45,574 nt of DNA from positions 1 through 45,574 of the forward strand of contig JAHISJ010000016.1 of assembly GCA_018818205.1 (NCBI GenBank), given 5' to 3'. Shown here piece by piece: positions 12,915-31,997 of this stretch. The translations under genes and the position numbers were made by a program. This stretch comes from Patescibacteria group bacterium (GTDB lineage: Bacteria; Patescibacteriota; JABMPQ01; JAHIRA01). The first letter of the stretch is position 1, and every line of letters starts with the position of its first letter. Under the pieces are notes generated by a model. The model was not told the DNA's origin, did no database searches, and saw only the letters and a list, made by a program, of their open reading frames with translations.

Positions 12915-13018
12915 TTTCAAAAAAAGTCCACCTTGTCCCATTGATATCTTTTCTGTATAATACACTTGTTTACAGAGTAATTTAAAACATAAAAAAAATA
13001 TGAAGGGAGGTGAGTAGC

Positions 13019-13348: not shown

Positions 13349-13465
13349 TTTGTGTATAGTGTATACATTCTTAAGAATCGAGCACCTGGAAATACATTTC
13401 CGTGCTCTTCTTAAGGATGTTTCTGTATATACAAAAACATCTACAAGCAACATAACAAAAAGAAA

Positions 13466-14917: not shown

Positions 14918-14975
14918 GGAAGTATCAATTTCTATTAAATGATAATGTTTACAGAAGGAATGTTGATGAGAGGTT

Positions 14976-14999
14976 CCTCCCCCTTTACTAAGGGGGAGG
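14976..14999. repeat. perfect hairpin CCTCCCCCTT-tact-AAGGGGGAGG between pyk and ppsA
   Basis: direct reading; common type of intergenic palindrome. Confidence 0.7.
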
Positions 15000-15046
15000 T
15001 TAGGAGGGGGTGTCTTTCCTTAGCAAAATAATACAAACAATATCAA

Positions 15047-17497
15047 ATGCAAAAAAAAGAAAAAAACATTCTCTGGCTGAGTGAAGTTGTCAACAAAGAC
15101 GTTCTCCTTGTTGGTGGTAAGAACGCATCAATGGGAGAGATGTATCAAAAGCTTACCAAAAAAGGAATCACTATCCCAAACGCGTTTGCGGTTACCGCAC
15201 GAGCGTATAGAACATTTATTGAACATGCGGGGATTAAAGAGAAGATGGAAGAGGCACTGCAAGGGCTGGACACGCATGACATGGATAATCTTTCTACCAG
15301 GGGAAGGGCGGTACGAAACTTAATTTTAGAAAGCGACTTTCCTAAAAAGCTTGAAGTAGAGATTATTAAAGCATACGATGTACTTTCAAAAGAGTACAAA
15401 AAACGGTCTGTTGATGTGGCAGTACGTTCAAGCGCAACCGCAGAAGATTTACCGGACGCCTCGTTTGCAGGTCAGCAAGAAACGTATCTTAATATTACCG
15501 GACAGTATCAGCTGCTACAGTCGGTAAAAAAATGCATGGCGTCACTTTTTACCAATCGTGCTATCTCATATAGAGTGGACAAAGGATTTGATCACTTCTC
15601 TGTAGAACTTTCTGTGCTGATACAAAAAATGGTTCGAAGTGATGTTGGGGCAAGCGGCGTGCTCTTTACGATTGATACCGAGTCGGGATTTGAAAATGCA
15701 ATTGTAATTAATGCGGGGTATGGGCTTGGTGAAAATATCGTGAAAGGAGTCATAAATCCTGACACTTATTACGTCTTTAAGCCAACTCTGTGCGATGGGT
15801 ATAGGGCAAAAGCGAGGAAAAACAAGTTTGACTATAGGCCCATTCTTTCTAAATCTATCGGCACCAAAGAGCTCAGGATGGTGTACAGTCCTGAGGGGAC
15901 TAGTCCTACTAAAAATGAAAAGGTTCCCAAGGATGAACAAGAAAAGTGTTCACTAACTGACGACGAGATTTTGCAGCTTTCATATTGGGCATGTTTGATT
16001 GAGAAGCACTACAAACGGCCAATGGATATTGAGTGGGCGAAAGATGGCAAAGAAGACGCACTGTATATTGTGCAGGCGAGACCGGAAACAGTTCATACAC
16101 AGACAGAAGAAGGAATGCTCACCGAGTACTCTCTTTCTAAAAAAGGATCGGTTCTTGTGTCAGGTGAGAGCATTGGCTCAAAGATTGGACAAGGTAGAGT
16201 GCGGGTGATTGAGGACGTGTCTAAGATCCATACCTTTAAAGAAGGCGAGGTTTTGGTTACAGAAATCACCGACCCAGACTGGGAGCCAATTATGAAGATT
16301 GCGGCAGCTATTGTAACCAATAGTGGAGGAAGAACCTCACATGCGGCGATTGTTTCTCGTGAACTGGGGACGCCGTGTATTGTCGGAACGGGAAACGCGA
16401 CATCTATTCTTAAAAATGGTCAGGAAATAACGGTATCGTGTGCCGAGGGGATGGAAGGAATGGTTTTTGCAGGGATGCTCCCCTACAAAGAAACAAAAAT
16501 CGATTTAAAGAAAATCCCTAAAACCAAAACTGACATCATGATGAACGTGGGGACGCCGGACAAAGCGTTTGATTTTGCGATGCTTCCTCATGACGGGGTA
16601 GGGCTTGCGCGTATTGAGCATATTCTCATTAATTCGGTTAAAGTGCATCCAAATGCGTTGATTTACTATAGTGGCATACAGGAGGAATCGGTTAAAAATG
16701 AAATTGACGAAATAACAAAAGGCTTTAAAAACAAAGAAGAGTTTTTTGTAGAAAAGCTAGCCGAGGGAGTTGCCATGATTGCCGCTGCGTTTTATCCTGA
16801 GGATGTCATTGTACGGCTTACCGATTTAAAGACCAACGAGTACTCGACTATGGTTGGGGGAAAGGATTTTGAACCACATGAAGAAAACCCTATGCTTGGG
16901 TGGCGTGGCGCGTCGCGCTATTATAGTGATGAGTATAAAAAGGCATTTGAGCTTGAATGTAAGGCAATAAAAAAGGTGCGCGATGGCATGGGACTGTATA
17001 ACCTTAAAGTGATGGTGCCGTTTTGCAGGACTCCCGAGGAAGGAAAAAAAGTAATTGATCTACTTGCGCAAAATGGACTAAAAAGAAAACGAGTAGGTAC
17101 GCGCAAAGGAGCAAAAGACTTAGATATTTATGTTATGTGTGAGATCCCGTCTAATGTAGTGCTCGCTAAAGAGTTTGCAAAGATATTTGATGGGTTTTCT
17201 ATTGGGAGTAATGACTTAACACAGTTGACGTTGGGTCTCGACAGAGATTCTAGCCTCGTGTCTCACCTGTTTGATGAACGAAACGAAGCGGTAAAGAGCC
17301 TTATTGCTGAGGTCATTAAGACAGCACATGCATGTAAGAGAAAGATTGGTATTTGCGGACAGGGGCCATCTGACTTCCCTGACTTTGCAGCGTTTCTGGT
17401 TGAGGCGGGGATTGATAGTATGTCGCTTACACCGGATACGGTTATAAAAACACGGATTGCGGTTGCTAAAAAAGAAGGAGAGCTTAGAAAAAAATGA
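15047..17497 (+). CDS. ppsA: phosphoenolpyruvate synthase
   Basis: VGGKNASMGEM; SGGRTSHAAIVSRELG phospho-His motif; FSIGSNDLTQLTLGLDRDS; GICGQGPSDFPDFAAFLVEAGIDSMSLTPD. Confidence 0.96.
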   Translation: MQKKEKNILWLSEVVNKDVLLVGGKNASMGEMYQKLTKKGITIPNAFAVTARAYRTFIEHAGIKEKMEEALQGLDTHDMDNLSTRGRAVRNLILESDFPKKLEVEIIKAYDVLSKEYKKRSVDVAVRSSATAEDLPDASFAGQQETYLNITGQYQLLQSVKKCMASLFTNRAISYRVDKGFDHFSVELSVLIQKMVRSDVGASGVLFTIDTESGFENAIVINAGYGLGENIVKGVINPDTYYVFKPTLCDGYRAKARKNKFDYRPILSKSIGTKELRMVYSPEGTSPTKNEKVPKDEQEKCSLTDDEILQLSYWACLIEKHYKRPMDIEWAKDGKEDALYIVQARPETVHTQTEEGMLTEYSLSKKGSVLVSGESIGSKIGQGRVRVIEDVSKIHTFKEGEVLVTEITDPDWEPIMKIAAAIVTNSGGRTSHAAIVSRELGTPCIVGTGNATSILKNGQEITVSCAEGMEGMVFAGMLPYKETKIDLKKIPKTKTDIMMNVGTPDKAFDFAMLPHDGVGLARIEHILINSVKVHPNALIYYSGIQEESVKNEIDEITKGFKNKEEFFVEKLAEGVAMIAAAFYPEDVIVRLTDLKTNEYSTMVGGKDFEPHEENPMLGWRGASRYYSDEYKKAFELECKAIKKVRDGMGLYNLKVMVPFCRTPEEGKKVIDLLAQNGLKRKRVGTRKGAKDLDIYVMCEIPSNVVLAKEFAKIFDGFSIGSNDLTQLTLGLDRDSSLVSHLFDERNEAVKSLIAEVIKTAHACKRKIGICGQGPSDFPDFAAFLVEAGIDSMSLTPDTVIKTRIAVAKKEGELRKK

Positions 17498-17531
17498 TTT
17501 TACATTTGATTTTTGAAGGGAGGTGATTGTT

Positions 17532-17894
17532 ATGGAACAAGAAACGATTAAAACACCAGATGCAAAAGATGTAGAGGAAAACCAAGGACTTTCTTACCTA
17601 AGCTACATCAGTATTTTCTTTTTGATTCCACTTCTTGCAAAAAAGGATAGTCCTTTTGCACAGTTCCATGCAAAACAGGGGATGACACTGGTGATTATGG
17701 TTATCGCAGTATTTATTGGGATCATGATTGTTGGGTTTGTTCCCTTCATTGGTCCGATTATTAGTTTTCTTACCTGGTTTGCAACAATTATTTTTGCGAT
17801 TGTTTGTGTGATAATGGGGTTGGTAAACGTCTCAAAAGGTGTGATGAAGCCGCTTCCGCTTATTGGACAGTTTGCGGAGAAGATTAAGTTTTAG
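17532..17894 (+). CDS. DUF4870-type small membrane protein
   Basis: DVEENQGLSYLSYISIFFLIPLLAKKDSPFAQFHAKQGM; RBS context GAAGGGAGGTGATTGTT ATG. Confidence 0.8.
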   Translation: MEQETIKTPDAKDVEENQGLSYLSYISIFFLIPLLAKKDSPFAQFHAKQGMTLVIMVIAVFIGIMIVGFVPFIGPIISFLTWFATIIFAIVCVIMGLVNVSKGVMKPLPLIGQFAEKIKF

Positions 17895-18787
17895 TGAATA
17901 CAGTCAGTACGTTATCGCTACAGGAACATGTGTTTGTGTTTAATAATTTTGCTATGTCATGTAGTAATCGATTTATAGTGCTAAGCTGTGCACGCTCAGG
18001 GTCAACCTACTTAATGAGCTTGCTCCAAAGTAATCCTGCTATAAAGATGCAAGGAGAACTTTTTAATTTGAGCGTTCTCTCAAGTATACTACTTGACTTA
18101 ACAGTTTCTGATCCAAAAAAATACGTTGAAGATTCATTGTCTTCTGAAGACCAATATGTTACATCCTGTGGATTTAAACTTTTTTATGGACATGCTACAC
18201 TCCAAAATTTTCTTGGGGATGTGAGTGCTTTACGATTTAAGGACGAAGCGCATCCAAATTTAGTTAAGAAAATGCAAAATCAAAGCGAATATTTATTGAA
18301 GCGGTATTCAAAAAAGGACCTTAAGAAAGCGAGTAAGACTTTAAGGAAGTATCTAAAAAGGAACACGGAATTTAAAATAGTACATTTGATGCGTCGAAAT
18401 AAATTAAAAAGACTTTTGTCGCTCAAAAAAGCATATGTTACCGATGTATGGGACTCATCACAAAAAACGCCAGAATTCTACAACAAGACTATTCGACTTT
18501 CATACGATGAATGTGTTCAAGATTTTAAGAAGACCAAGCAGTATCAAAAAAAGTATAGATCATTTTTTAGCAAACATGAACAACTTGATATATACTACGA
18601 AGATCTAGCCAAAGATGTTGAAAATGTTATGGATACTATTCAAAAATTCATTGGAGTTCAGCCAGTCACTTTACGTTCAGATCTAAAAAAACAAGGATCG
18701 ATGCCATTAAGCAAGGCCATAGAGAATTATGACGAGCTAAAAGCTCAGTTCGAGGGAAGACCTGAAAATGTCTATTTTGAGGATTGA
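17894..18787 (+). CDS. sulfotransferase-like protein (Stf0-type)
   Basis: PAPS-loop-like NRFIVLSCARSGSTYLMSLLQSNPAIKMQGELFN; LDIYYEDLAKD; possible internal start at 17954. Confidence 0.65.
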   Translation: MNTVSTLSLQEHVFVFNNFAMSCSNRFIVLSCARSGSTYLMSLLQSNPAIKMQGELFNLSVLSSILLDLTVSDPKKYVEDSLSSEDQYVTSCGFKLFYGHATLQNFLGDVSALRFKDEAHPNLVKKMQNQSEYLLKRYSKKDLKKASKTLRKYLKRNTEFKIVHLMRRNKLKRLLSLKKAYVTDVWDSSQKTPEFYNKTIRLSYDECVQDFKKTKQYQKKYRSFFSKHEQLDIYYEDLAKDVENVMDTIQKFIGVQPVTLRSDLKKQGSMPLSKAIENYDELKAQFEGRPENVYFED

Positions 18788-18875
18788 TAAGTCGAAAAAC
18801 TCTTTATTAGTAGGTGAGAAAGTGGTAGAGTTTTTTTAGTTCTACGGATATTTTGAACGTACGTGTACATTTAGT

Positions 18876-18980
18876 GTCATTCCGGACAGCCATTCTTATG
18901 GCTGAGCCGGAATCTCGTTTCTATTCTCCTGTAAACTGTGAGATCCCGGATAATCATTCAGAAATGATTTCGGGGATGAC
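18876..18980. repeat. tandem hairpins of the GTCATTCCGG...CCGGAAT / ATCCCGG...CGGGGATGAC type
   Basis: ATTCCGG/CCGGAAT with CAGCCAT/ATGGCTG inner stem; ATCCCGG/CGGGGAT with AATCATT/AATGATT inner stem; outer GTCAT/ATGAC. Confidence 0.7.
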
Positions 18981-19001
18981 AAATCTGTTGTGGGGAGAAG
19001 G

Positions 19002-19069
19002 AACAACATGGAAGCCTGCGCGGATCCCGAAGGCTTTGCGAAGGGACTCACGAAAGCAGGGATGTTGTT
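19002..19069 (+). repeat. structured element copy 1 (multi-stem hairpin, apex GAAGGCTTTGCGAA)
   Basis: AACAACAT/ATGTTGTT, CCTGC/GCAGG, TCCC/GGGA stems around conserved apex. Confidence 0.65.
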
Positions 19070-19119
19070 TAGGAAACGGAGGGGTCCCCATTAAATTCTG
19101 ATTTCATGGGGAAGAGGAG

Positions 19120-19189
19120 AAACATTCCGGAAGCTGGAGTGGGCTCCGAAGGCTTTGTGAAGGAGCACACGGAAGCTGGAAGAATGTTT
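19120..19189 (+). repeat. structured element copy 2 (covarying stems, apex GAAGGCTTTGTGAA)
   Basis: AAACATTC/GAATGTTT, AGCT/AGCT, GCTCC/GGAGC stems around conserved apex. Confidence 0.65.
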
Positions 19190-19195
19190 AGACGA

Positions 19196-19285
19196 GGAGA
19201 GGTCGCATAGTGGTCTAGTGCGCACGCTTGGAAAGCGTGTATCCCTTTACCGGGATCGAGGGTTCGAATCCCTCCCTCTCCGCCA
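19196..19285 (+). tRNA. tRNA-Ser (anticodon GGA), CCA encoded
   Basis: acceptor GGAGAGG/CCTCTCC, anticodon arm cgcttGGAaagcg, long variable arm, GGTTCGAATCC T-arm, terminal gCCA. Confidence 0.95.
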
Positions 19286-19344
19286 CGCTATGTCTAAAGA
19301 TATTTAGCAATGCAGAAAAGATCAATCTGTGGTCTATTAAAAAC

Positions 19345-19851
19345 ATGACATACAAAAAGAAAACCTGGATAGAAAAACTTGAAGATGAAGACAAAAAGAA
19401 AAAGTATCCAAAGTTTTTAACATTTGACCCTACATTTCCATGTGGCCCTGCACTTACTAAAATGGGTGCGAAGAAGGGAGATAAAGTTGTAATTACCCTC
19501 CCAACGGAAGTCGATGAGATTATGAAAAAGGTGCCAAAGGGAAAGGTGATTACGTTAAAAGAGATTAGTAGGAAGCTTGCCAAAAAGCATAACGTTGATT
19601 ATTGTTGTACGTTGACTGGTGGATTTTTTGTAACAACTGCGGCAAACGCGGCAAAAGAATATGAAAAGAAGGGCAAGAAGAGAATCACTCCGTATTGGCG
19701 CACACTCAAAATGAACGGATATTTGAACGAAAAATATCCCGGAGGACTTGAAGCACACAGGAAGCTTTTGGAAAAGGAAGGGTTTAATATAGTAAAAAAA
19801 GGCAAGAACAAGTATTTTGTTCAAGACTTTGAGAAGTATTTGGTGACGTGA
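19345..19851 (+). CDS. MGMT/ATL-like DNA-binding-domain protein
   Basis: VPKGKVITLKEISRKLAKKHNVDYCCTLTGGFFV...ITPYWRTLKMNGYLNEKYPGGLEAHRKLLEKEGFNI; start at M40 of the listed ORF, since the ORF 5' part overlaps the tRNA. Confidence 0.65.
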   Translation: MTYKKKTWIEKLEDEDKKKKYPKFLTFDPTFPCGPALTKMGAKKGDKVVITLPTEVDEIMKKVPKGKVITLKEISRKLAKKHNVDYCCTLTGGFFVTTAANAAKEYEKKGKKRITPYWRTLKMNGYLNEKYPGGLEAHRKLLEKEGFNIVKKGKNKYFVQDFEKYLVT

Positions 19852-19985: not shown

Positions 19986-20961
19986 TTACAGTGGACTTTT
20001 AATTTTTTTTAAACTTGGATTTGTAACTCTTGTATATCGCTCTGTCGTTTTAATATTAGATATGTCCAAGTAAAACTTGAACATATCTAATATCAACACC
20101 ATTTTCTAGGAGGTGAGTGGCAAAGCTATGACGCAGCGAATGAAACGGCGCGTCTTTTTTGATACCTGATTTTTTGAGAGCGTTTTTGAAGATTTTTTGA
20201 ATCGTTCTGGTGTGTAATTTTCCACCTCTTTCACTTTCAAAAAGAACATCATTTTTATCTTTACATGCCATGCATTGTTTAAGACGAGAGAGTATTTTTT
20301 CTGAAATAATGGAGATTCTGTCTTTATTACCTTTTGCTTCATTTATGCGTATTACTTGTTCGTCTAAATCAATATCTTTGATTTTAATATTTTTAACTTC
20401 GCTAACTCTAAGGCCCGCACTATAGGCTAGAGCAAGAATAAGTGTATGTTTATGGTTATTGCTTGAATCAATAATCTTTCTTATTTCTTTTTTTGAAAAA
20501 ACCACGGGAAGCTTCTTGGATTTTTTAGCATGTTGAATGGTGATTCTTTCTTTTACCTTTAGCACCTCGTGAAAAAAGAATTTTATGGCGTTAAGGTTTT
20601 GACTTATTGTTTGAGAAGAAAGTCCTTTTCTCTGTATTGTTTCCAAGTATGCTCTTACCGCTTCAATTTTATGTATACTTGGATTTCTGTTAACAAACTC
20701 AAGGTATTGTTTAATGCATCGCAAATAATTTTTTCTAGTTGATGGACTATAGTTTCTAATTCTAAGCTCGTTTTCTGTTTTAATAAGGTATTGTTGGATC
20801 ATATGTTTTTTGGTTACAATAAAAAAAGCGGCACTAGTGTCCTTGAAGGACATTTTCTCCGCTTGCCTGTATAGTATCAATACGTCGGGTATATTACAAG
20901 TGTTGGTAGTGTATCGGTAAAGAGTTCGGGTATACGCTAGTTGTGTGAAATTGAAAATCAA
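19986..20961 (-). pseudogene. XerC/D-like tyrosine recombinase, frameshifted just before the catalytic Tyr
   Basis: ORF 20056-20961 ends ...[27 protein letters not shown]; one extra base near 20061 separates it from the continuation [24 protein letters not shown] (stop 19986-19988; Tyr codon 20034-20036). Confidence 0.85.
20053..20093. repeat. 18-bp inverted repeat with one mismatch, spanning the frameshift
   Basis: ATATTAGATATGTCCAAG-taaaa-CTTGAACATATCTAATAT. Confidence 0.85.
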
Positions 20962-20977
20962 TGTTCTTTGAGCAATG

Positions 20978-21349
20978 CTATTTTCCTAGATCCTCAATTT
21001 CGATCGCATTTTTTGTATAGTCTCTGTTAATCTTGCTTCTACCTGGTTTTGCTGGTCCATCATATTGATCGAAGGGGTAGATTGTCATAGCACCTTTGAA
21101 CATCAAAGGATCAAGAATCCATTTCTTCCCTCCAAGCTCAAAATAATCAGGTCCAATAATACCAGCACCAGAAGTGTAAGAAATTATCATTTTTTCATCT
21201 TCAGCTTTAAGCTCATAATCAGCGTATACAAAAGGTATTTGAGGCCCTCTTGTTACCTTATATCTTCCTAAATAAGTAATTGTGAAATCAGGTAAATTAA
21301 AAGAATCAGATTCTTGAAAATCAAGTCTCTCGCTATAATTTTTTTGCAT
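20978..21349 (-). CDS. hypothetical protein, minus strand, between recombinase and first attC-like site
   Basis: 123-aa ORF with plausible composition ([29 protein letters not shown]). Confidence 0.5.
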
Positions 21350-21457
21350 ATTTGTTACTATTACTTTGAAGATTTCTACTTATAGTATAGCACAATCACT
21401 AAAAATCTATATCTTTACAGCTTATTTTTATATCTCTCAATGTAAGTTCTGTAACTT

Positions 21458-21528
21458 CACACAACAAAGAATATCAGAAATTCATTCCGCTGCGCTCCAT
21501 GAACTTCTGATATTCTTGAACGTTATAC
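21458..21528 (+). repeat. attC-like site A
   Basis: cACACAAC..AAGAATATCAGAA[A]TTCAT...ATGAA[C]TTCTGATATTCTT gaacGTTATAC; 13+5 bp stem with extrahelical A/C. Confidence 0.75.
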
Positions 21529-21589
21529 GCCATTTTGGACTTGCCTAGTGCAAATAACAACGAATTTATAAAAGTTTTTTTCTAAAGTT

Positions 21590-22177
21590 ATGGCGAAAAT
21601 AAAAGTTTTAATCGAAGGATACGCAAAGCCGCTTGATAAAGGATGGAAGGCTAGTTGTACCACTTGTCTGATTACCACTAACGACAAAAAAATCATAACT
21701 GATCCCGGCTGTAATCGTGTAAAATTACTTGAGGCTTTAGCAGCAGAAGATTTAAATATAGGTGATATTGATTATGTTTTTTTGTCGCATCGACATCCAG
21801 ATCATATTTTGCTTGCTGGTCTTTTTGAGAATGCAAAGTACGTCACTTTTGATGGAAATATGATGTACAATAAAGATGTTCTGTTAGAGTTTGATAAACA
21901 TTGTCTTGGTTCTGATATTGAAATTGTTGCTACCCCAGGTCATGTCAATGAACATCTTTCTCTTATCGTTGATACATCTGAAGGTAAAGTTGCAATAGCC
22001 GGTGACGTAATTTGGTGGCTAGACAGCGAGGAACAAAACTTTGATTTGCATCAAAAAGACCATAATCAAGCAGTTGATTTAAATATGGACACTCTAGTAG
22101 AAAGCCGGAAAAAACTTTTAAAAATGGCGGACTATATAATTCCTGGTCATGGAAAAAGATTTAAGGTGGATAAATGA
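21590..22177 (+). CDS. metallo-beta-lactamase-fold hydrolase (cassette gene)
   Basis: SHRHPDHILL, GHVNEHLSLIV, AGDVIWWLD, IIPGHGKRF. Confidence 0.85.
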   Translation: MAKIKVLIEGYAKPLDKGWKASCTTCLITTNDKKIITDPGCNRVKLLEALAAEDLNIGDIDYVFLSHRHPDHILLAGLFENAKYVTFDGNMMYNKDVLLEFDKHCLGSDIEIVATPGHVNEHLSLIVDTSEGKVAIAGDVIWWLDSEEQNFDLHQKDHNQAVDLNMDTLVESRKKLLKMADYIIPGHGKRFKVDK

Positions 22178-22200
22178 GGACGGCAAGTCCAAAATAGCAA

Positions 22201-22395
22201 GTATAACAGCTTGTATGCGGTTCAGTAAAAATGACTCTTTTGAATTTTAATGGAATGTCATTTTTACTGCACCCACATTTTGCACCTCTAAATATACTCG
22301 ACTGAAAGTCTTCAAATAATAGGACGAAACTGCTAAAATCAAAGCATGTACCAATAAAACCGGTGCAAAACGTCGCATACAAATAAACGTTATGC
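22201..22395 (+). repeat. attC-like site B (long, VCR-length)
   Basis: GTATAAC..TTGTATGCG ... CGCATACAAataaacGTTATGC, with internal perfect hairpin CAGTAAAAATGAC/GTCATTTTTACTG. Confidence 0.7.
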
Positions 22396-22412
22396 GAAAT
22401 CAAATTGCTTAA

Positions 22413-22865
22413 ATGACTATTAGAAAGTTCAAAAAATCAGATACTACTGAATTGTCGAAGTTGATGATCGACACAGTATTAGAATCTAACATCAAGGACT
22501 ATACAAAAGAGGCTGTTAATCATCTGTGCGAAGAATACACATCCGAGAAAATCCTTATAGATTCTAAGAAAATGTCTATCTTTTTAGCAGTCGAAGAATC
22601 CAAATTATTAGGCACTATCGCCCTTGATGATGATTTGATACTTAGAATGTTTGTTCTTCCGAAGTATCAGGGCAAAAAAATTGGTAAAAAGCTTGTTCAC
22701 CATATTGAAGATATTGCTAGAAAAAGGGCTATCGAAAAATTGAAGTTGCGTGCAAGTATAACCGCGTATGGTTTTTATAAGAAACATGGTTACAAAAAGA
22801 TCAAGGAAACCGACATAAAAGGCATTGGTAAAATAATTTGGATGGAAAAAGATTTAAGCATTTGA
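22413..22865 (+). CDS. GNAT-family N-acetyltransferase (cassette gene)
   Basis: LILRMFVLPKYQGKKIGKKLVHHIEDIARKRAIEKLKLRASITAYGFYKKHGYKK. Confidence 0.9.
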   Translation: MTIRKFKKSDTTELSKLMIDTVLESNIKDYTKEAVNHLCEEYTSEKILIDSKKMSIFLAVEESKLLGTIALDDDLILRMFVLPKYQGKKIGKKLVHHIEDIARKRAIEKLKLRASITAYGFYKKHGYKKIKETDIKGIGKIIWMEKDLSI

Positions 22866-22875
22866 AAAGAGACTT

Positions 22876-22948
22876 CACATAACAATGAGTAACAGAAATT
22901 TATCTTCGCTTCGCTACGATAAACTTCTGTTACTCTCAAACGTTAGCT
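22876..22948 (+). repeat. attC-like site C
   Basis: CACATAAC..GAGTAACAGAA[A]TTTA...TAAA[C]TTCTGTTACTC tcaaacGTTAGCT. Confidence 0.75.
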
Positions 22949-22980
22949 GAAATTAATTTTGGATACTATATAATCAATAT

Positions 22981-23403
22981 ATGAATAAAAAAACTTGTTC
23001 CTTTTGCGGTTTTGATGACAAAGCAGTCACTGTATATGAAGACGAAGTGTGCTTTGCAATAGTGAGTGAGAATCCCATTAACAAGCATCATGTTTTGGTC
23101 ATCCCTAAAAAGCATTATGAATCTTTTATAGAGCTTCCGGATAAATTAGCCGTGCATATCTTTCTAGTTGCCAAAAAACTTTCCAAGGCGGTAAGAGAAG
23201 CATGCAATCCAGATGCTATAACTCATTTATTTGACGATGATGTCTCAAAAAGTGGTTACAACATGGTTCCACATTACAAATTTCATATTATTCCAAGGTT
23301 TAAGAAAGATATGCACATGATTGACTGGGGGCAACTAAGAACTGATCAAAACTATGATGATTGTTGTAAGTACGCAAAAGGCATTAAGGATAAATTAAGA
23401 TAA
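22981..23403 (+). CDS. HIT-family protein with altered active site (cassette gene)
   Basis: CSFCGFDDKAVTVYEDEVCFAIVSENPINKHHVLVIPKKHYESF...VPHYKFHIIPRF. Confidence 0.75.
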   Translation: MNKKTCSFCGFDDKAVTVYEDEVCFAIVSENPINKHHVLVIPKKHYESFIELPDKLAVHIFLVAKKLSKAVREACNPDAITHLFDDDVSKSGYNMVPHYKFHIIPRFKKDMHMIDWGQLRTDQNYDDCCKYAKGIKDKLR

Positions 23404-23422
23404 TCTATCCAAAATTAACAAC

Positions 23423-23527
23423 ACCTAACAGCGTGTATGCGGTTCCGTTCGTCGTCATACCTCCTACTCATATTACCGCTTCGCGATATTATACAGTCAG
23501 CAAACATCGCATACGTAGACGTTATGT
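23423..23527 (+). repeat. attC-like site D
   Basis: ACCTAAC (fits RYYYAAC)..GTATGCG ... CGCATACgtagacGTTATGT. Confidence 0.75.
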
Positions 23528-23568
23528 GATATAACAAAATTTAATGCAATCATCTATCTATAGAGTTT

Positions 23569-24318
23569 ATGGCCACCATAGAAACCGGTAAACAATTTCA
23601 GAAAATCGTTGAAGAAATAAAAAAGGATCAAAATGTCTTAGCTTTTTGGATTGATGGAGCGAGAGGAAAAGGAATGGAAACAGAAAACTCTGATTATGAC
23701 GCGAGAATGATTGTAAAAGACAATGTTGTTAATCAGTATAAAGAGAAATATGGAAGCAAGAAGAATCCTGAAATTGAAATCAGCATAATGACATTTGATG
23801 AATTAAAAGAGCATGCAAAATACGGCTCGGAAATGTCCTGGGATAGATATAATTTTGCCCACCTTAAGGTGATGTTTGATCGAACCGGTGAAATTCAAGT
23901 AATAATTGATTCTAAGTCTATGTTATCTAAAAAAGACCAAGACTTGATTATTAAAGATGTTTTAGGTGCTTTTATTAATCAAGTTTATCGTTTAGAAAAA
24001 AATGCAAGAGATGGTAATTTGATAGCCGCAAAATTTGATGCGATCGAGGCAATTCCGTTCCTTCTTGAAGCCATATTTGCACTTGAAGGCAATGTGAGAC
24101 CTTATAATAAATATTTGGTGTGGGAATTAGATAACTATCCTCTCGAAAAATTCCCTTGGAAGAGAGGTGAGCTAGTTTCGAATCTAACCTCAGTTATTGA
24201 TGGAGGTCAATTACACAAGTTGCTTGATATTTTGCTTACTATTAGACCGATATTTAAAGACGAAGGATATTCAGAAGAATTTGATGAGTGGAAAGGCTAC
24301 TATAAAGTTGGAGAATAG
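23569..24318 (+). CDS. nucleotidyltransferase-domain protein, aminoglycoside adenylyltransferase-like (cassette gene)
   Basis: FWIDGARGKGMETENSDYDARMIV nucleotidyltransferase motif; downstream helical domain. Confidence 0.65.
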   Translation: MATIETGKQFQKIVEEIKKDQNVLAFWIDGARGKGMETENSDYDARMIVKDNVVNQYKEKYGSKKNPEIEISIMTFDELKEHAKYGSEMSWDRYNFAHLKVMFDRTGEIQVIIDSKSMLSKKDQDLIIKDVLGAFINQVYRLEKNARDGNLIAAKFDAIEAIPFLLEAIFALEGNVRPYNKYLVWELDNYPLEKFPWKRGELVSNLTSVIDGGQLHKLLDILLTIRPIFKDEGYSEEFDEWKGYYKVGE

Positions 24319-24370
24319 TCGATTCAGTGATCTCAGTATATCGCTCGCGGAGATATTAAATTTTGTTACA

Positions 24371-24441
24371 TCACATAACAAAGGCTATCAGAAATTCACT
24401 TCACTTTGCTCCGTGAACTTCTGATAGACACGAACGCACTA
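24371..24441 (+). repeat. attC-like site E (3' core box degraded)
   Basis: CACATAACaaaggCTATCAGAA[A]TTCAC...GTGAA[C]TTCTGATAG acacgaacGCACTAG; the GTTA core is lost. Confidence 0.65.
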
Positions 24442-24523
24442 GTGTCGCGTTTAGATAATTTTTTTGTCTTTAATACTATCTTAAACATATCTGCTAGGGA
24501 AAAAAGAAAATTTGAGTTAGTAT

Positions 24524-24865
24524 TTGTATAAGCAATTAATAATAAAACATATGAGAAGCATTTTATTGTCTTTAGCCTTAGGTGCAGCAGCTGGTATAAT
24601 TGATGTTATTCCAATGATAATTCAGAAATTAGACAAATATGCATGCATATCTGCTTTTGTTCAATGGATCATAATTGGATTCATAGTTACACACATAAAA
24701 ATTCCAGGTGTTGAGGGTTGGTCTAAAGGCACAATCATTGCTGTTTTAATGGCACTACCAATAATTATAATTGTAATGAAAACTGACCTAAAATCAGTAC
24801 CTATTATTTTAATAACGTCAGCAATTCTTGGCGGATTAGTGGGATTTTTTAGCGATAAAATTTAG
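24524..24865 (+). CDS. small integral membrane protein (cassette gene)
   Basis: four hydrophobic segments; possible internal start MRSILLSLALG. Confidence 0.5.
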   Translation: MYKQLIIKHMRSILLSLALGAAAGIIDVIPMIIQKLDKYACISAFVQWIIIGFIVTHIKIPGVEGWSKGTIIAVLMALPIIIIVMKTDLKSVPIILITSAILGGLVGFFSDKI

Positions 24866-24885
24866 TGTTTCTTGCAAGGCTAAAA

Positions 24886-24925
24886 TTAAACTTTCTCCAT
24901 GTCTTCCAGCAGGGAGAAAGTTTAA
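24886..24925. repeat. perfect 13-bp inverted repeat TTAAACTTTCTCC...GGAGAAAGTTTAA
   Basis: direct reading, 3' of the 24524 ORF. Confidence 0.75.
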
Positions 24926-25011
24926 AATAGTTAAGAATAAGCCAAAAGCTCGAATAGTTTTTCATAATGACAAATGGGTTGAAAGCGGTACACTTATAAT
25001 GGAGTTATTAA

Positions 25012-25093
25012 GGGCTAACCCGTGAGTCACAGTTCAAACTTCGTCTAGCAGTGGCTATCCGAAATTGAAACTTCAGATAATGCGCAAACATTA
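25012..25093 (+). repeat. attC-like site F (degenerate)
   Basis: ggCTAAC ... gttcaaacttcg / cgaaattgaaac ... aaacATTATGT (G to A in the core). Confidence 0.4.
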
Positions 25094-25126
25094 TGTGCAA
25101 TTTATTCGATCAATAAACATTTAATA

Positions 25127-25537
25127 ATGAAAACGAGAGTAATAGTAAGTGCGGTAATTGAAGATGGTCATAAACTTCTCTTTGCCAAGAAAAAAGAAAA
25201 TGTTGGCCCATATCCAAATACTTGGCATCTAATTGGTGGAGGCATTGAGGAGGAAGAATCGTTAGAGGAGAGTATCAAAAGAGAAGTTCGAGAGGAAGCT
25301 AACATTGAAATTGAAATTATCGAAAGTGTAGGCTTTGATGATGATTTTGAACCTGATAAAAAAGGTGAGTTGACTCACTACATTTTTCTTGTTTACAAAG
25401 CTAAGTATATTTCTGGTGAAGCAAAAGCTGATGACGATGTAGTCGAACTGAGGTGGTTTTCAAAGAAGACTCTACCTGTGAAAATGTTTAATAGACCATC
25501 ATTGAAGCTTTTTAAAAGAATGGGTTATATCTCATAG
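25127..25537 (+). CDS. NUDIX hydrolase (cassette gene)
   Basis: Nudix box GGGIEEEESLEESIKREVREEANIEIE. Confidence 0.93.
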   Translation: MKTRVIVSAVIEDGHKLLFAKKKENVGPYPNTWHLIGGGIEEEESLEESIKREVREEANIEIEIIESVGFDDDFEPDKKGELTHYIFLVYKAKYISGEAKADDDVVELRWFSKKTLPVKMFNRPSLKLFKRMGYIS

Positions 25538-25550
25538 TCACGAAAACGGC

Positions 25551-25623
25551 ATATAACTCTGAGTATGCGACACCCCATTTTGCTATCGCTTCATGGGACG
25601 TCGCATGCTCAGAAACGTTAAGT
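25551..25623 (+). repeat. attC-like site G
   Basis: ATATAACt CTGAG-T-ATGCGAC ... GTCGCAT-G-CTCAG aaacGTTAAGT (fits GTTRRRY). Confidence 0.8.
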
Positions 25624-25947
25624 GAAGTAAGCCTGGCTAACGCTAATAAAATGACAAACATGTCCAGTTCATGGATTGATAATAGAATGCCTAGCAGTGC
25701 CCCAGCATAATAGCGAGTACTTACTGCTGGATGGTGAAAAAAGAGACCTCGGTGATTTTGATATAAACTGTGTTGAGAAAAATTGTGACATCCAGAAACA
25801 AACTGTAGAGTAGTATTTGATTCTAGGAAATTACAAAAACTTGACTTAATACATAAATACGTTAAACTCTAGCTAAGTTTAAAGTTATATTTGTATGAAA
25901 TACAGAAGACAATCTACATCAATGTCTATGCGGATGATAATGCTTTG

Positions 25948-26036
25948 CCTCGGGCTGAGTTAATCTTTGTGTAGTCAATTAACGCATGGCAACACAAATC
26001 AGCCCGAGGGGCTGATTTTTTTGTTATGCGTTAATT
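25948..26036 (+). promoter_or_regulatory. overlapping alternative hairpins (attenuator-like and/or attC-like site H)
   Basis: CCTCGGGCTGA (25948-25958) pairs with TCAGCCCGAGG (25999-26009), which overlaps terminator-like AATCAGCCC-gag-GGGCTGATT-TTTTT; nested in AATTAACGCAT...ATGCGTTAATT; contains GTTATGC. Confidence 0.6.
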
Positions 26037-26058
26037 TATTTCTCATTTTTAGATCAGT

Positions 26059-27054
26059 ATGAAAACAATTGCAAAACAATACGAAGAAATACTTAAGCGC
26101 CCAACACGTGGAATAGTTCACTTCAACGATGTGTTCTCCAAACGTGATGTTGATTTTGACGCAGAATTAACAGCAATTACACGTAATCTCGGTAATTTTT
26201 CAGATGTAACTTTCCCAATCGGTCAAGATCATAAGCTGGCAGATTATGGAGTAAATTTGTTGCATGATCTTATCGCAGAACAAAATAGAATAATAAATAG
26301 TATTCGAGATAGAGTCGGGAAAATGATACTCCAAAATTTTACAGAGAAGGTTGTTCTTTCGGTTGTGAATTGTGCTCCGCGAAATAGTAAGACAACAGCG
26401 AATGGGAGAAATGGTGAAGATTTTCACTTAGCAATTACCGACAATGGACTTGAAATTTACGCCGTTCCTCTTGCGATATTACAAGCGCTTGAAACACGCG
26501 ATAAAATACTTGCTCTGTATCGTATTCCGAATGAGAAATTAAAGGTAACTGACGGTCTTCATGAGCAATTTCGTTCTTCTATCATTGCCACAACGAGGTA
26601 TTTTCCAGAAATCTTGGAACCAATTTTTGAATATCAAGATAGAAATAGCTTGATAAACGCAAAATTATTAGGAAAACATCCTGATGTAATCCCAAAACAA
26701 AAAAAATTGGCAGAATTTGCATTTGCTGATACATTCGGAAATGTTCGTATTTCTGTTAAGGACACAGAAATATTTAAAAGTTATTTTGGAAGTGGTAATA
26801 TTGGAGATGTAGTAAAAATGAGAGTTGGAAAATCAAAATCTGTTGATGCTTATTACACAACCTCTTTAAAAGAAATCCCAGATGGTGAATTGGGTATTTA
26901 TCAAAATGTAGCAGATAATGATAATTCTAAGGCCAGTTATTGGGAAATTGTGAAGAAGTGGTCTGTTGGTACACTTTGGAGAGCGGAACAATCTTTAGAA
27001 GAATTAAACCCGAATTTTAGGAATGAAGAAATTGTGGTTACTGAGAAGCAGTAG
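26059..27054 (+). CDS. conserved hypothetical protein (orphan, 331 aa)
   Basis: long ORF with coding-like composition; no family confidently recognised. Confidence 0.7.
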   Translation: MKTIAKQYEEILKRPTRGIVHFNDVFSKRDVDFDAELTAITRNLGNFSDVTFPIGQDHKLADYGVNLLHDLIAEQNRIINSIRDRVGKMILQNFTEKVVLSVVNCAPRNSKTTANGRNGEDFHLAITDNGLEIYAVPLAILQALETRDKILALYRIPNEKLKVTDGLHEQFRSSIIATTRYFPEILEPIFEYQDRNSLINAKLLGKHPDVIPKQKKLAEFAFADTFGNVRISVKDTEIFKSYFGSGNIGDVVKMRVGKSKSVDAYYTTSLKEIPDGELGIYQNVADNDNSKASYWEIVKKWSVGTLWRAEQSLEELNPNFRNEEIVVTEKQ

Positions 27055-27101
27055 GAAAAAATGGATATTCAGGTAAAAATATTCATAATTAAAAACCATT
27101 T

Positions 27102-27509
27102 ATGACAAGATACATAATCGTTTGCCTATTCAGTGGGGTTTTGTTCGGTATAATCGATGGCATTATTAACGCAAACCCATTTGCAAAAAAGCTATTTGAA
27201 GTGTATAAGCCGCTAGCAAAAAAATCTGTTAACGTTCCTGTTGGAGTATTTATTGACCTGTTTTATGGTTTCGCAATGGGGGCAATCTTTTTGCTTACCT
27301 ATTCTTCTCTTCCCGGTGAAAGCGGGCTAACAAAAGGCATAGTCTTTGCTTTGATAGTATGGTTTCTAAGAGTTGTGATGAACGTTGCGTCGACATGGAT
27401 GACACTAGATGTTCCGAAGAAAACCTTATTCTATGTTTTAACAACCGGATTAATTGAAATGGTAATAATCGGAATTGTATATGGGATTTTTTTAAAACCA
27501 ATTATGTGA
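27102..27509 (+). CDS. small integral membrane protein
   Basis: hydrophobic segments; resembles 24524 ORF in GIID and KGxxxAL motifs. Confidence 0.6.
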   Translation: MTRYIIVCLFSGVLFGIIDGIINANPFAKKLFEVYKPLAKKSVNVPVGVFIDLFYGFAMGAIFLLTYSSLPGESGLTKGIVFALIVWFLRVVMNVASTWMTLDVPKKTLFYVLTTGLIEMVIIGIVYGIFLKPIM

Positions 27510-27524
27510 ATGAATCGGTGAATA

Positions 27525-27585
27525 CATCATACAATAAAGTCTATCAGAAATTCATTCCACTTGGTTATCTCAAACATTAATAATG
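27525..27585 (+). repeat. attC-like remnant I
   Basis: catcatacaataaagtCTATCAGAAATTCATTCCAC matches the 5' half of sites A/E; 3' arm missing. Confidence 0.5.
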
Positions 27586-27650: not shown

Positions 27651-29072
27651 ATGAATAAAAACAAAAAGAAAGCGCTGTCCATATTCTCATTAATGATCAT
27701 GAACATTGCGCTTATTGCTTCTCTGAGGGGATTGCCCACAATGGCTGAAGAGGGTCTTGCAATAGTCTTCTTCCTTATATTTGCAGCTATTGTTTTTCTA
27801 ATTCCCGTTTCTTTGGTTTCAGCCGAGTTAGCCACAGGCTGGCCCAAAGAAGGCGGTATTTACGCGTGGGTAAAAGAAGCTCTGGGTGAACGCTGGGGTT
27901 TTACGGTCATATGGACAGAATGGCTGCAAAATATGGTATTTTATCCCACGGCTCTTGCAGCGACAGCCGGAATAGTAGCCTATGGATTCAGTCCAGCCTT
28001 GGCAGAAAATAAATTGTATACGCTACTGGTTGTTGTTGCGGTTTATTGGGGTGCTACCTTTATTAATTTGCGCGGACTAAAATTATCAACGATTTTTACC
28101 AATGTTGGTATCATTGCTGGTTTGGCGGTACCTGGTTCTATTCTCATTATTGCGGGTATGTATTGGGTCTTTTCCGGCCAGCCCTTAGCCATTCCTCCTA
28201 CTTTCAGTAATTTCATTCCCGATCTTTCCAATGTCAAGACACTCGTTTTTTTGACCGGGGTATTTTTGTTTTTTTCCGGGATGGAGGTATCGGCCGTACA
28301 TGCACAGGAGGTCAAAAATCCTAAAAAGGATTATCCAAAGGCAATTTTCATGTCTGCCATAATAATCGTTTCGTTATTTATTCTTGGTTCTCTGACCATC
28401 GCCTTTATTATTCCGCAAAAGGAAATCAGCCTGACTGCTGGCATCATGGAAGCGTTCGATAAAATATTTAGTACTTTAGGGATCCACTGGTTTGTCCCTG
28501 TGCTGGGTGTACTAGTTGCCATTGGGTTGGTCGCTTCAATCCTGGCTTGGATAGCTGGCCCTTCGACAGGTATATTAGTTGCAGCCAAGAATGGCAATCT
28601 CCCGCCCTTTTTCCGCAAAACCAATAAAAATAACGTGCAGATCAATATCCTTTTGATTCAGGGAGCAGTTGTTACCCTGATCTCCCTGGTTATTCTGCTT
28701 ATGCCTACTGTTTCTTCCTCATTCTGGGTCCTAACTGTTCTTGCTGCCCAGCTGTATTTGTTGGTGTATGTCATGATGTTCATTTCCGCCATTGTTTTGA
28801 AATATAAAAAACCGAAAGTAGACAGACCGTATGCGGTACCAGGTGGCAAGCTTGGCATGTGGATCACCGCTGGCATTGGCACAGTGGCAGCAATTTTCGC
28901 CTTAGCTTTAGGGTTTTTCCCACCAGGTCAGCTTAAAACAGGAGACATCTTCCTTTTTGAAGGCTTTCTTATATTCGGACTAGTCATTGTAATCGGTCTG
29001 CCCCAGCTGATTTACACCTTTAGGAAAGAATCTTGGATAAAAAAAGAAAAAACAATAGAAATCAATAAATAA
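27651..29072 (+). CDS. APC-superfamily amino acid permease, GadC (glutamate/GABA antiporter)-like, copy 1
   Basis: RGLPTMAEEGLAIVFFLIFAAIVFLIPVSLVSAELATGWPKEGGIYAWVKEALGERWGF; WIAGPSTGILVAAKNGNLPPFFRKTNKN; RPYAVPGGKLGM; LGFFPPGQ. Confidence 0.9.
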   Translation: MNKNKKKALSIFSLMIMNIALIASLRGLPTMAEEGLAIVFFLIFAAIVFLIPVSLVSAELATGWPKEGGIYAWVKEALGERWGFTVIWTEWLQNMVFYPTALAATAGIVAYGFSPALAENKLYTLLVVVAVYWGATFINLRGLKLSTIFTNVGIIAGLAVPGSILIIAGMYWVFSGQPLAIPPTFSNFIPDLSNVKTLVFLTGVFLFFSGMEVSAVHAQEVKNPKKDYPKAIFMSAIIIVSLFILGSLTIAFIIPQKEISLTAGIMEAFDKIFSTLGIHWFVPVLGVLVAIGLVASILAWIAGPSTGILVAAKNGNLPPFFRKTNKNNVQINILLIQGAVVTLISLVILLMPTVSSSFWVLTVLAAQLYLLVYVMMFISAIVLKYKKPKVDRPYAVPGGKLGMWITAGIGTVAAIFALALGFFPPGQLKTGDIFLFEGFLIFGLVIVIGLPQLIYTFRKESWIKKEKTIEINK

Positions 29073-29080
29073 TAGAATAT

Positions 29081-30496
29081 ATGTCCAAACCTACAAAAAA
29101 AATGCTCACAGTTTTCTCCTTGGTCATGGTCAACATTTCCCTGATCGCGGCTCTGAGAGGATTACCAACTATGGCCGAATATGGCTTTAGTATTATTTTC
29201 TTTCTGATTCTTGCAGTAGTCATATTTTTAATCCCGGTTGCTCTGATTTCCGCAGAGCTTGCCACAGGGTGGCCGGAAAGCGGTGCAATTTATGTATGGG
29301 TAAAAGAAGCGCTTGGTGAGCGCTGGGGCTTTGTCGCTATTTGGACGCAATGGATACAGAATGTTGTTTTTTACCCTACCGCCCTTGCAGCCATCGCCGC
29401 CACAGCTGCATTTTTATATAAACCAGAATTGGCAACTAATCCATTATTTACCATAGTCATTATTTTTGTAGTGTATTGGGGAGCCACTTTTATAAATTTC
29501 CGTGGATTAAAAATTTCCACCATTTTTACTAATGTTGGCACTGTCCTCGGTGTTCTTGTGCCGGGTGTATTATTGATGGTTTGTGCTGCTATCTGGTTAG
29601 CTACCGGCCATTCCTCCGCGATCGAATTTAGTTGGGCTAGCTTTGTGCCAAATATGAGCAATCTCTCAAATATAGTGTTTTTAACGGGCGTGTTCCTATT
29701 TTTTGCTGGCATGGAAGTATCTGCTGTTCATGTCAAAGAAGTAGGGAACCCCAAAAAAGATTATCCAAAAGCCATCTTTATTTCATCAGTTATTATTGTT
29801 GCTATTTTCGCCCTAGGTTCTCTTGCTATCGCTATTATTACTCCCGCAAATGAAATCAGCCTAACAGCCGGTATTATGCAAACGTTCATGTCTGTTTTTA
29901 AAAGTTTGAATGTGTTGTGGTTAGTGCCGGTAATCGCCATAGTCGCCATACCAGGGATGATCGCTCAAATATTAAACTGGATTGCCGGTCCATCAAAGGC
30001 CCTTCTTGTTACCGCGAAAGATGGTTGCTTGCCGCCGTTTTTTCAGCATATAAATAAGCACGGTATGCAAACGCATATTTTTATTACTCAGGGAGTAGTT
30101 GTCTCAATTATCTCTCTTGTTTTTGTAATACTGCCCTCCGTTTCTAGCTCGTTCTGGATATTAACCGCGCTTGCCGCTCAAATGTATTTGATCGTGTATC
30201 TATTTATGTTTGTCTCAGCCATTGTTTTAAAATATAAAAGAGCGGATGTGAAAAGAGCATATACGGTTCCCGGAGGAAAAATCGGTATGTGGATTGTTGG
30301 CGGAGTTGGTATTGCGGCTGCTCTGTTTGCCTTTTTCCTTGGCTATGTCCCCCCGGCTGAACTGGAAACGGGTAGCATTTTCTTTTATGTCGGCTTCCTT
30401 GTAGTGAGTCTCTTGATTCTTGTCGGCGCTCCGCTTCTTATTTATGCTTTGAGAAAACCTAGTTGGGCAAAAAAAGTTGAATTAAAAGAAAAATAG
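29081..30496 (+). CDS. GadC-like antiporter, copy 2
   Basis: same motifs as copy 1. Confidence 0.9.
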   Translation: MSKPTKKMLTVFSLVMVNISLIAALRGLPTMAEYGFSIIFFLILAVVIFLIPVALISAELATGWPESGAIYVWVKEALGERWGFVAIWTQWIQNVVFYPTALAAIAATAAFLYKPELATNPLFTIVIIFVVYWGATFINFRGLKISTIFTNVGTVLGVLVPGVLLMVCAAIWLATGHSSAIEFSWASFVPNMSNLSNIVFLTGVFLFFAGMEVSAVHVKEVGNPKKDYPKAIFISSVIIVAIFALGSLAIAIITPANEISLTAGIMQTFMSVFKSLNVLWLVPVIAIVAIPGMIAQILNWIAGPSKALLVTAKDGCLPPFFQHINKHGMQTHIFITQGVVVSIISLVFVILPSVSSSFWILTALAAQMYLIVYLFMFVSAIVLKYKRADVKRAYTVPGGKIGMWIVGGVGIAAALFAFFLGYVPPAELETGSIFFYVGFLVVSLLILVGAPLLIYALRKPSWAKKVELKEK

Positions 30497-30521
30497 TAAA
30501 TAGATACAACAGAATATTTCT

Positions 30522-31997
30522 ATGAAAAACAAAAAAAAAGTAGTAAAAACACTAACATTGTCGGTTTTTGGTTTGGCTATGATGAATGTGGCTGCGATTA
30601 TGAGCTTGAGGGGCCTGCCCATGATGGCAGAAGAAGGTCTATCCCTTATCTTTTTTGTGGCTTTTGCAGCTATCTTCTTTTTATTGCCAGTTTCTTTAAT
30701 ATCAGCCGAGCTTGCTTCGGCTTTTTCTACTGGAAAAGGTGGAGTTTACCTTTGGGCAAAAGAAGCATTTGGTAATCGTTTTGGTTTTATTACCATATAT
30801 CTTCAATGGATCCAGAATGTTATTTGGTTTCCTACGGTCCTAGCGTTTTGTGCTGGAAGTCTGTCCTATGTGATGGTTTTATTCTGGGATCCAAATCAAG
30901 TGAGCATGCTTTCTCAAAATAATTATTTCATCGTCATAGTAATCCTAGTGGTATATTGGCTGGCTACCTTCAATTCATTTAGAGGAATAAAAGCGGCCAG
31001 TAAATTGAGCACGATTGGTGTAATAGCAGGTACTTTGGTTCCGGGTATTTTTATTATCATATTAGGTGCAATATGGGCTCTTACTGGCCATGATCTGGGA
31101 TTTATGCATGTTCCCGGTGGAGGACAAGCTCGTCTTCTTCCTGATTTTTCAAACTTTTCTAGCTTGGCATTTTTAGCTGGAATAGTCCTTTTATATGCTG
31201 GCATGGAAGTTGGTGCGGTACATGTTAAAGATTTAAAAAACCCTCAAAAAGAATTTCCAAAAGCAATTTTTGTATCAATGGCAATTATCATTGTGATCTT
31301 TTCTCTGGGGTCTCTGGCCGTTGCTTCAGTGTTATCTCCAAATGAGATCAATCTTAATTCCGGGCTCATGCAGGCCTTTCATGACATGATAGTAAAATTA
31401 GTCCCAGCAGGATTTGTAAACCCAATTATTGCAGTATTGGGCTTTCTTACGGCCTTAGGTGTTGTGGGTGGAGTTGCTGCCTGGATAGCAGGTCCTTCAA
31501 AGGGCTTGCTCGCAACAGCCAGCGAAGGAGACTTGCCTCCATTTTTGGCTAAGATGAACAAAAATAATATCCAAACAAATATCCTATGGATTCAGGGTGG
31601 GATAGTGACTTTACTGGCTTTATTGTTTATCCTTATTCCAAATGCAAGCGTTGTGTTTACACTTCTTACCGCCATTACTGCCATTCTTTATTTAACCATG
31701 TATTTGTTGCTTTATATCACTGCAATCAAGCTTCGTTATAGCCACCCGGATTTAAAAAGACCTTACAGAGTGCCAGGCGGAAATTTTGGAATGATAACAA
31801 TCTGTTCTACCGGTATACTTGCAGTTTTGTTTGCCCTGGTGCTTGGATTTTTCCCTCCTTCACAATTGCATTTAAAAAGTCCGGCCACGTATGTAGTATA
31901 CGTGGTAATTGGGGTTATCGTTTTCTTAGCTATTCCATTTATAATCAGTGCGCTTAAAAAGCCAAGCTGGGTTAAAAAACCAGATTCTAATAAATAA
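30522..31997 (+). CDS. GadC-like antiporter, copy 3
   Basis: same motifs; KRPYRVPGGNFGM. Confidence 0.9.
   Translation: MKNKKKVVKTLTLSVFGLAMMNVAAIMSLRGLPMMAEEGLSLIFFVAFAAIFFLLPVSLISAELASAFSTGKGGVYLWAKEAFGNRFGFITIYLQWIQNVIWFPTVLAFCAGSLSYVMVLFWDPNQVSMLSQNNYFIVIVILVVYWLATFNSFRGIKAASKLSTIGVIAGTLVPGIFIIILGAIWALTGHDLGFMHVPGGGQARLLPDFSNFSSLAFLAGIVLLYAGMEVGAVHVKDLKNPQKEFPKAIFVSMAIIIVIFSLGSLAVASVLSPNEINLNSGLMQAFHDMIVKLVPAGFVNPIIAVLGFLTALGVVGGVAAWIAGPSKGLLATASEGDLPPFLAKMNKNNIQTNILWIQGGIVTLLALLFILIPNASVVFTLLTAITAILYLTMYLLLYITAIKLRYSHPDLKRPYRVPGGNFGMITICSTGILAVLFALVLGFFPPSQLHLKSPATYVVYVVIGVIVFLAIPFIISALKKPSWVKKPDSNK

Follow-up and report, generated by a model that had tools for sequence, protein, structure and literature searches.

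Small genes of unrelated function that follow one another on a single strand, each with an imperfect palindrome behind it, raise the question of whether a Patescibacterial genome carries an integron and, if so, which recombinase would serve it. The stretch of DNA analysed (hereafter the window) is the 45,574-nucleotide contig JAHISJ010000016.1 of assembly GCA_018818205.1, which is contig C26 of a 1.41-Mb, 29-contig metagenome-derived Patescibacteria genome. A sequence-only reading had proposed that positions 21458-27585 hold a sedentary-type or CALIN-like (cluster of attC sites lacking integron integrases) array. Comparative sequence analysis confirmed that this stretch is a genuine integron-type gene-capture array in the Patescibacteria, with the qualification that its integrase does not count as IntI under the current definition. 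Directly upstream of the array lie an integrase gene, divergent from the cassettes, and an attI site, neither of which had been noticed in the sequence-only reading; the locus is therefore not merely CALIN-like, although the integrase gene is broken. Taken together with related loci, these data make it highly likely that an integron type is widespread in Patescibacterial chromosomes in which an XerA/IntI-like recombinase without the IntI-specific insertion acts on attI and attC. The recombination features of the window are as follows.

19986-20802, minus strand: tyrosine recombinase (integrase) gene; PF00589, E 8e-39; XerA/IntI-like by NCBIfam
20922-20954, plus strand: attI, GAGTTCGGGTATACGCTAGTTGTGTGAAATTGA, matched by motif; inferred crossover G|TT at 20940|20941
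21459-21528, plus strand: attC S1; covariance model E 4e-8
22201-22395, plus strand: attC S2, long (~190 nt); pattern scan, inspection, 4/4 match to its own cassette start, fold
22877-22948, plus strand: attC S3; covariance model E 4.5e-6
23423-23527, plus strand: attC S4; covariance model 34.6 bits with default filters
24373-24436, plus strand: attC S5; its R' box is missing, the junction being GAACG|CACTAGTGT; inspection, inverted repeat, fold
25013-25096, plus strand: degenerate attC-like S6, with CATTATGTG replacing GTTATGTG; inspection, no covariance model match
25551-25623, plus strand: attC S7; covariance model E 5e-5
27527-27579, plus strand: terminal degenerate attC-like S9; left half resembles S5, right half gone; repeat family D1, 85% identity

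Across the phylum the attC sites are R''/L''/L'/R' hairpins with AAC...GTT, conserved in pairing and variable in length, and their architecture reads RYYYAAC, 1 nt, 11-bp L'', GGTTC..., ACATC, 11-bp L', 4 nt (RRAC), GTTRRRY. A pattern scan for [CT]AAC, a stem and GTT[AG] found attC-like sites in the window, whereas dinucleotide-type shuffles yielded none; over ~50 recombinase neighbourhoods of the phylum (637 kb) it gave 100 matches against 12 expected. We also built a covariance model, R1, from 34 attC sites of 16 other genomes, with no site from the window; all of its E-values are rough. This home-made model supplied the attC-model check that had been suggested, matching four window sites (21459, 22877, 23423 and 25551) at E 4e-8 to 7e-4 and, at such scores, on the plus strand only. 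S4 was recovered whole in the default-filter searches and as fragments only in the unfiltered run. S2 and S5 were accepted as attC by inspection, not by R1, and the GTT box of S5 looks to have been lost to an insertion sequence (IS) end, because the junction GAACG|CACTAGTGT lies at window 24437. Of the palindromes first listed, those at 21459, 22201, 22877, 23423, 24373 and 25551 stand as attC, those at 25012 and 27525 are degenerate, and the one near 26000 was ruled out, as it has no R1 match and consists of a G+C-rich stem followed by T's. In S1 and S3, the conserved extrahelical base attributed to these sites turned out to be an A.C mismatch on the top strand (a G.T wobble on the bottom strand), not a bulge. 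A search of Rfam found no attC-like family. Since the training sites were chosen by pairing, we give shuffle-based covariation of the R1 training alignment no leading place in the evidence. Of the 89 R1 matches in integrase neighbourhoods, 88 are upstream of the integrase and run divergently from it, the only exception being L034:2548-2579 (E 0.012). The source genome has further R1 matches, with a cluster on C21 and a cluster on C5, in each of which all sites share one strand, and a lone site on C10; the C5 and C21 clusters would fit the CALIN description. As a separate observation, the L032 array (array-oriented 13000-19500) has tandem similar attC with ATT for GTT, a diverged local site family.

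In integron arrays the R' box of a site belongs to the next cassette, so that the expected partner of R'' is the start of the cassette to which it belongs, past the previous G|TT, and not the adjacent R'. This pairing was not used in site selection and is an independent test of the cassette units. Of the 64 cassettes that allowed the test, 39 had four bases ahead of AAC that agreed with the own start at every position, as against 3/64 for the adjacent R' and 5.6% of random pairs. In the window, R'' of S1 (CACACAAC) and the start on the attI side (GTTGTGTG) complement each other exactly, and S4 and S5 have in common a 25-nt inverted repeat, 96% complementary, that links S5 with its own cassette start at 23521. 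Palindromes and homology breakpoints coincide, as had been predicted: in a cassette found in two arrays of the source genome (L118 and L119, 82.5%), homology begins at G|TT and stops at the AAC of R''. Nor is gene order fixed. The same-genus genomes G310 and G225 share an 88%-identical 2.4-kb flank, and no common cassettes were detected within the 2.5-kb array piece of the second genome; the cassette variability between relatives rests on this one pair and this short piece. We also observed in L100 a duplicated cassette block (array-oriented 5143-5745 and 9619-10222, 92% identical) with its right end at the GTT of its attC.

These results bear on whether the sites are simply intergenic palindromes, terminators or REP-like (repetitive extragenic palindromic) repeats between the genes of an operon. 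Some of the palindromes are indeed terminators, such as that near 26000, but neither the common orientation, the AAC/GTT boxes and the retrieval by a model made from other genomes, nor the pairing of cassette starts and ends hundreds of bases apart, is expected of terminators, and this explanation is scarcely credible. For S1-S5 and S7 it is already refuted.

The complementarity of a cassette end to its own start is not confined to the R box: it reaches ~24 nt and then fades. Over positions 5-24, 10.4/20 bases were complementary to the own start compared with 6.0 to the adjacent start (p 8e-8). A mismatch at positions 7-8 is conserved, and 16 of 62 cassettes matched at 15/20 or better. We simulated the excised form by joining the cassette end and start in silico and folded the bottom strand. 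The excised-form hairpins were mostly far more stable than the array form (-48.0 versus -18.3 kcal/mol for L118 14167, -49.4 versus -31.1 for window S2 and -26.2 versus -18.7 for window cassette 1); a few degenerate cassettes gained no stability. As classical attC pair over R boxes of ~7 bp, the ~24-nt extension looks distinctive in these sequences.

The attI motif, built from 24 relatives with the window excluded, lies 40-150 bases ahead of the point where the integrase alignment begins and has the consensus nAnTTCGnATAAAAACGAGTTATnTGAAATAnn. In a scan of the window the site at 20922-20954 scored best with 21.4 bits, compared with 13.2 for the runner-up and a maximum of 13.7 in five shuffled windows, and it adjoins the integrase gene, frameshifted as that gene is. 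Many contigs break off no more than ~250 bases from where the integrase starts, which fits assembly breaks where cassettes vary, and is only suggestive.

By its sequence, the recombinase is a tyrosine recombinase of XerA/IntI-like type that lacks the IntI-specific insertion. Two conserved motifs are separated by 68-70 residues in IntI1 and other IntI, and by 27 (44/46) or 29-30 (2/46) in the Patescibacterial proteins; the insertion of ~42 residues is missing, and the alignment to the VchIntIA crystal sequence (2A3V) breaks at the same place. With the integron-integrase model TIGR02249, the Patescibacterial members scored 188-229 bits against a cut-off of 265 and 508-523 for true IntI, and the principal segment of their match spans no more than profile positions ~1-180. 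With the XerA model NF040815 (cut-off 220 bits), two of six intact relatives scored above the cut-off and the window protein reached 212. The catalytic residues are invariant across the Patescibacterial family. In the tree, IntI formed one clade (100/100) with the Patescibacterial group outside it, and the window integrase fell inside a 21-row Patescibacterial clade (100/99). A canonical IntI integron merely residing in an unusual phylum would account for attI, attC and the array layout. It would also agree with the fold, since an AlphaFold2 model of the L078 integrase (predicted local distance difference test score, pLDDT, 90.8) has the integron integrase VchIntIA (2A3V) as its best PDB match, which also counts for the integron reading proposed here, and with the approximately unbiased (AU) test, in which a tree joining Patescibacteria and IntI in one clade fared as well as the unconstrained tree (p-AU 0.55), so that the two may be sisters. 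However, the residue counts, the TIGR02249 scores and the separate IntI clade make the canonical reading very improbable, and membership of the Patescibacterial integrase in IntI is already refuted by the absent insertion, the score and the tree. An exclusive clade of Patescibacterial and Bacteroidota integrases was likewise rejected (p-AU 0.02). Weak recombinase matches in G054, G050 and G036 (33-35% identity) were left out of the clade count and the tree; at L012 (G050:C5), a recombinase 33% identical to that of the window has a divergent attC-like hairpin alongside (17.9) and possibly represents another lineage.

An XerA-like recombinase next to an attI with a near-palindromic Xer-like core also recalls Xer/dif-type (p-dif-like) modules, in which double-stranded dif-like sites bound genes that the housekeeping XerC/D moves, and the source genome has another tyrosine recombinase, on C21, that we took as the housekeeping Xer. 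The sites of the window, in contrast, are asymmetric hairpins in R''/L''/L'/R' order with a variable loop and conserved AAC/GTT, and the cassettes all point one way from a dedicated recombinase adjoining attI. Distribution, too, ties attC to this recombinase. The gene was found in 47 of 381 Patescibacteria genomes, ~1 in 8, and attC (R1, E 1e-4) in 53 of 381, 34 of which also have the integrase. Thus attC occurred in 34/47 integrase-positive versus 19/334 integrase-negative genomes (p 2e-24) and, when the 16 training genomes were omitted, in 18/31 versus 19/334 (p 1e-12); the integrase-negative genomes with attC may be CALIN-like or incomplete. We regard movement by Xer/dif as very unlikely and retain the integron reading, in which the dedicated recombinase would do the work.

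Several observations weigh against that reading. The integrase gene of the window has a one-base frameshift, some of its attC sites (S6 and S9) are degenerate, and the own-start match is not kept in every array pair. The covariation count of R1 is partly circular, as its training sites were picked by a hairpin criterion; in 13 of the 47 integrase-positive genomes no attC passed the threshold, contigs being incomplete and the filters strict; and all genomes are metagenome assemblies. The frame of the window integrase is lost after ...VLLGHI at 20059, just before the segment with the catalytic Tyr; the missing C-terminus (24 residues, catalytic Tyr included) can be read in another frame to 19986, and DNA similarity to a relative continues through 19980. 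Unless the frameshift is an assembly error, this integrase copy may be inactive, and the array of the window has probably fallen silent recently or is decaying slowly. A related reading, confined to the window copy and compatible with the family-level one, holds that the array is a CALIN-like relic with a dead integrase, its genes kept only because they are useful. The frameshift before the catalytic Tyr, the degenerate S6 and S9, the IS remnant at S5 and the other attC clusters of the source genome, on contigs where a second integrase copy was not found, are consistent with this, but attI and the sites S1, S3, S4 and S7 are intact, the integrase gene is otherwise an open frame, one-base errors are common in metagenome assemblies, and the gene is present in 46 other genomes with the catalytic Tyr in frame in nearly all. 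We consider such a relic a serious possibility, just short of an even chance.

The genes between the sites, called by Pfam and NCBIfam profile searches, and the remaining features of the array are listed below.

20978-21349, minus strand: cassette 1 (20941-21522), inverted open reading frame (ORF), 123 aa; no Pfam/NCBIfam match
21590-22177, plus strand: cassette 2 gene, metallo-beta-lactamase-fold hydrolase; PF00753, E 1e-15
22413-22865, plus strand: cassette 3 gene, GNAT acetyltransferase; PF13673, E 1e-19
22981-23403, plus strand: cassette 4 gene, HIT-domain protein; PF01230, E 4e-17
23569-24318, plus strand: cassette 5 gene, nucleotidyltransferase-like, weak; PF18765, E 5e-4, under the curated cut-off
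24437-24450, strand not applicable: probable IS end remnant, CACTAGTGTCGCGT; junction as in the intact IS4-like element of L118
24524-24865, plus strand: hydrophobic (membrane) protein; no Pfam match
25127-25537, plus strand: NUDIX hydrolase gene; PF00293, E 1e-18
25976-26040, strand not applicable: terminator-like palindrome, not attC; fold, no covariance model match
26059-27054, plus strand: orphan ORF, 331 aa; no Pfam/NCBIfam match
27102-27509, plus strand: DUF6789 membrane protein; PF20587, E 9e-7

The alternation of small co-oriented ORFs with palindromes was borne out, except that the ORF of cassette 1 is inverted and runs against the array direction, an inversion that had escaped the sequence-only reading. 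Of the functions proposed there, Pfam agreed on the metallo-beta-lactamase, GNAT, HIT and NUDIX proteins, and gave the nucleotidyltransferase only weakly, below the cut-off. Right after the array, window 27651-31997 has three tandem related permease-like genes (473, 471 and 491 aa), the first two with 65% DNA identity across 1.2 kb. The IS4-like element of L118 (11223-12555; DDE_Tnp_1 plus DUF4372 transposase; ends CACTAGTGTTGCGTC...GACGCAACGCTAGTG) lies precisely at the core of an attC, with the junction GAACG|CACTAGTGT also seen at window 24437. The same junction occurs at L119:16588, a contig end, and an end of the element follows ACAACGTTTAGCA at L120:5948; window 20832 is a further position listed for it. 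This element may target attC cores, to judge from these junctions; an IS1111 group with attC as its target is known.

Like sedentary chromosomal integrons, the Patescibacterial loci have a divergent integrase, an adjacent attI, G|TT junctions, cassettes of small co-oriented genes, and hairpin attC whose R' in the array comes from the next cassette. They differ in the absent IntI-specific insertion and in attC with asymmetric 1/4-nt R-L spacers and arms of up to ~24 nt, and R1 gave zero matches on the canonical integron loci L187, L194, L206, L207 and L198. XerA-type recombinases (NF040815; PDB 5HXY, 4A8E) lack the insertion as well and give the best or near-best family model for most Patescibacterial proteins. 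Archaeal XerA is a dif resolvase, and to our knowledge it has not been linked to cassette arrays; at the archaeal XerA-like loci L143, L150 and L171, attC arrays were not above chance. Archaeal integrons (PMC9668308) resemble the present ones in coming from uncultured lineages in metagenome genomes and in having structured attC and attI, but archaeal IntIs possess the IntI-specific domain (PMC9668308), in which the Patescibacterial integrases differ. That additional domain is a criterion for defining and finding integrons and has been described as necessary for integron recombination (PMC9668308). Standard searches could miss the Patescibacterial integrons because they require this domain. Integron reviews and surveys name many phyla, Patescibacteria not among them, and our literature search found no description of integrons in Patescibacteria or the candidate phyla radiation (CPR), with preprints outside the search, few subscription journals covered and priority not proven. 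What appears new here is a system that is integron-like by layout, yet has an integrase outside the present IntI definition.

Recombinases without the IntI insertion were also seen in the Bacteroidota (L133, L135, L141, L144, L168 and L172), followed on the same strand by arrays whose attC-like sites show own-start pairing at G|TT. At L133, L135, L141, L168 and L172, unlike in the Patescibacteria, the array is downstream of and co-directional with the integrase, the site letters are TTGC...GCAAC, and the R1 score is weak or none. These loci are possibly a parallel, unrecognised integron lineage.

For the Patescibacteria, we propose that the XerA/IntI-like recombinase joins the adjacent attI (TTCGnATAnnAACGAG|TTRYRYGAAAT) to the attC of circular gene cassettes, with the crossover between G and TT. 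Once integrated, the cassettes all face the same way, divergently from the integrase, with every gene placed ahead of its attC. What is conserved in attC is pairing, not the letters themselves, so that the site most likely recombines as one folded strand (the bottom one), as in classical integrons. As cassette ends are complementary over up to ~24 nt, an excised circle can fold into a far longer hairpin than the integrated site. The sequences themselves show the layout, attI, attC, the cassette units with their boundaries, the missing insertion and the recurrence across the phylum, whereas the role of this recombinase, the strand used, the direction bias and activity at the present day are inferences. 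A wider proposal, which we put forward tentatively and hold to be rather less than probable, is that a Patescibacterial integron lineage without the IntI domain either split off before IntI gained it or arose separately, that its cassette-specific arms of up to ~24 bp, which form in the excised circle alone, render free cassettes much better hairpin substrates than integrated ones and thereby tilt the system towards capture, and that the Bacteroidota hold a parallel lineage.

A phylum-wide set of integrons with integrases lacking this domain would mean that integrons occur more widely, and are perhaps older, than present counts show; to judge from the Bacteroidota arrays, this gap extends past one phylum. 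The evolution of single-strand attC recombination from Xer-type recombination would become directly testable, and ultra-small, gene-poor, host-dependent bacteria would possess a dedicated gene-capture system.

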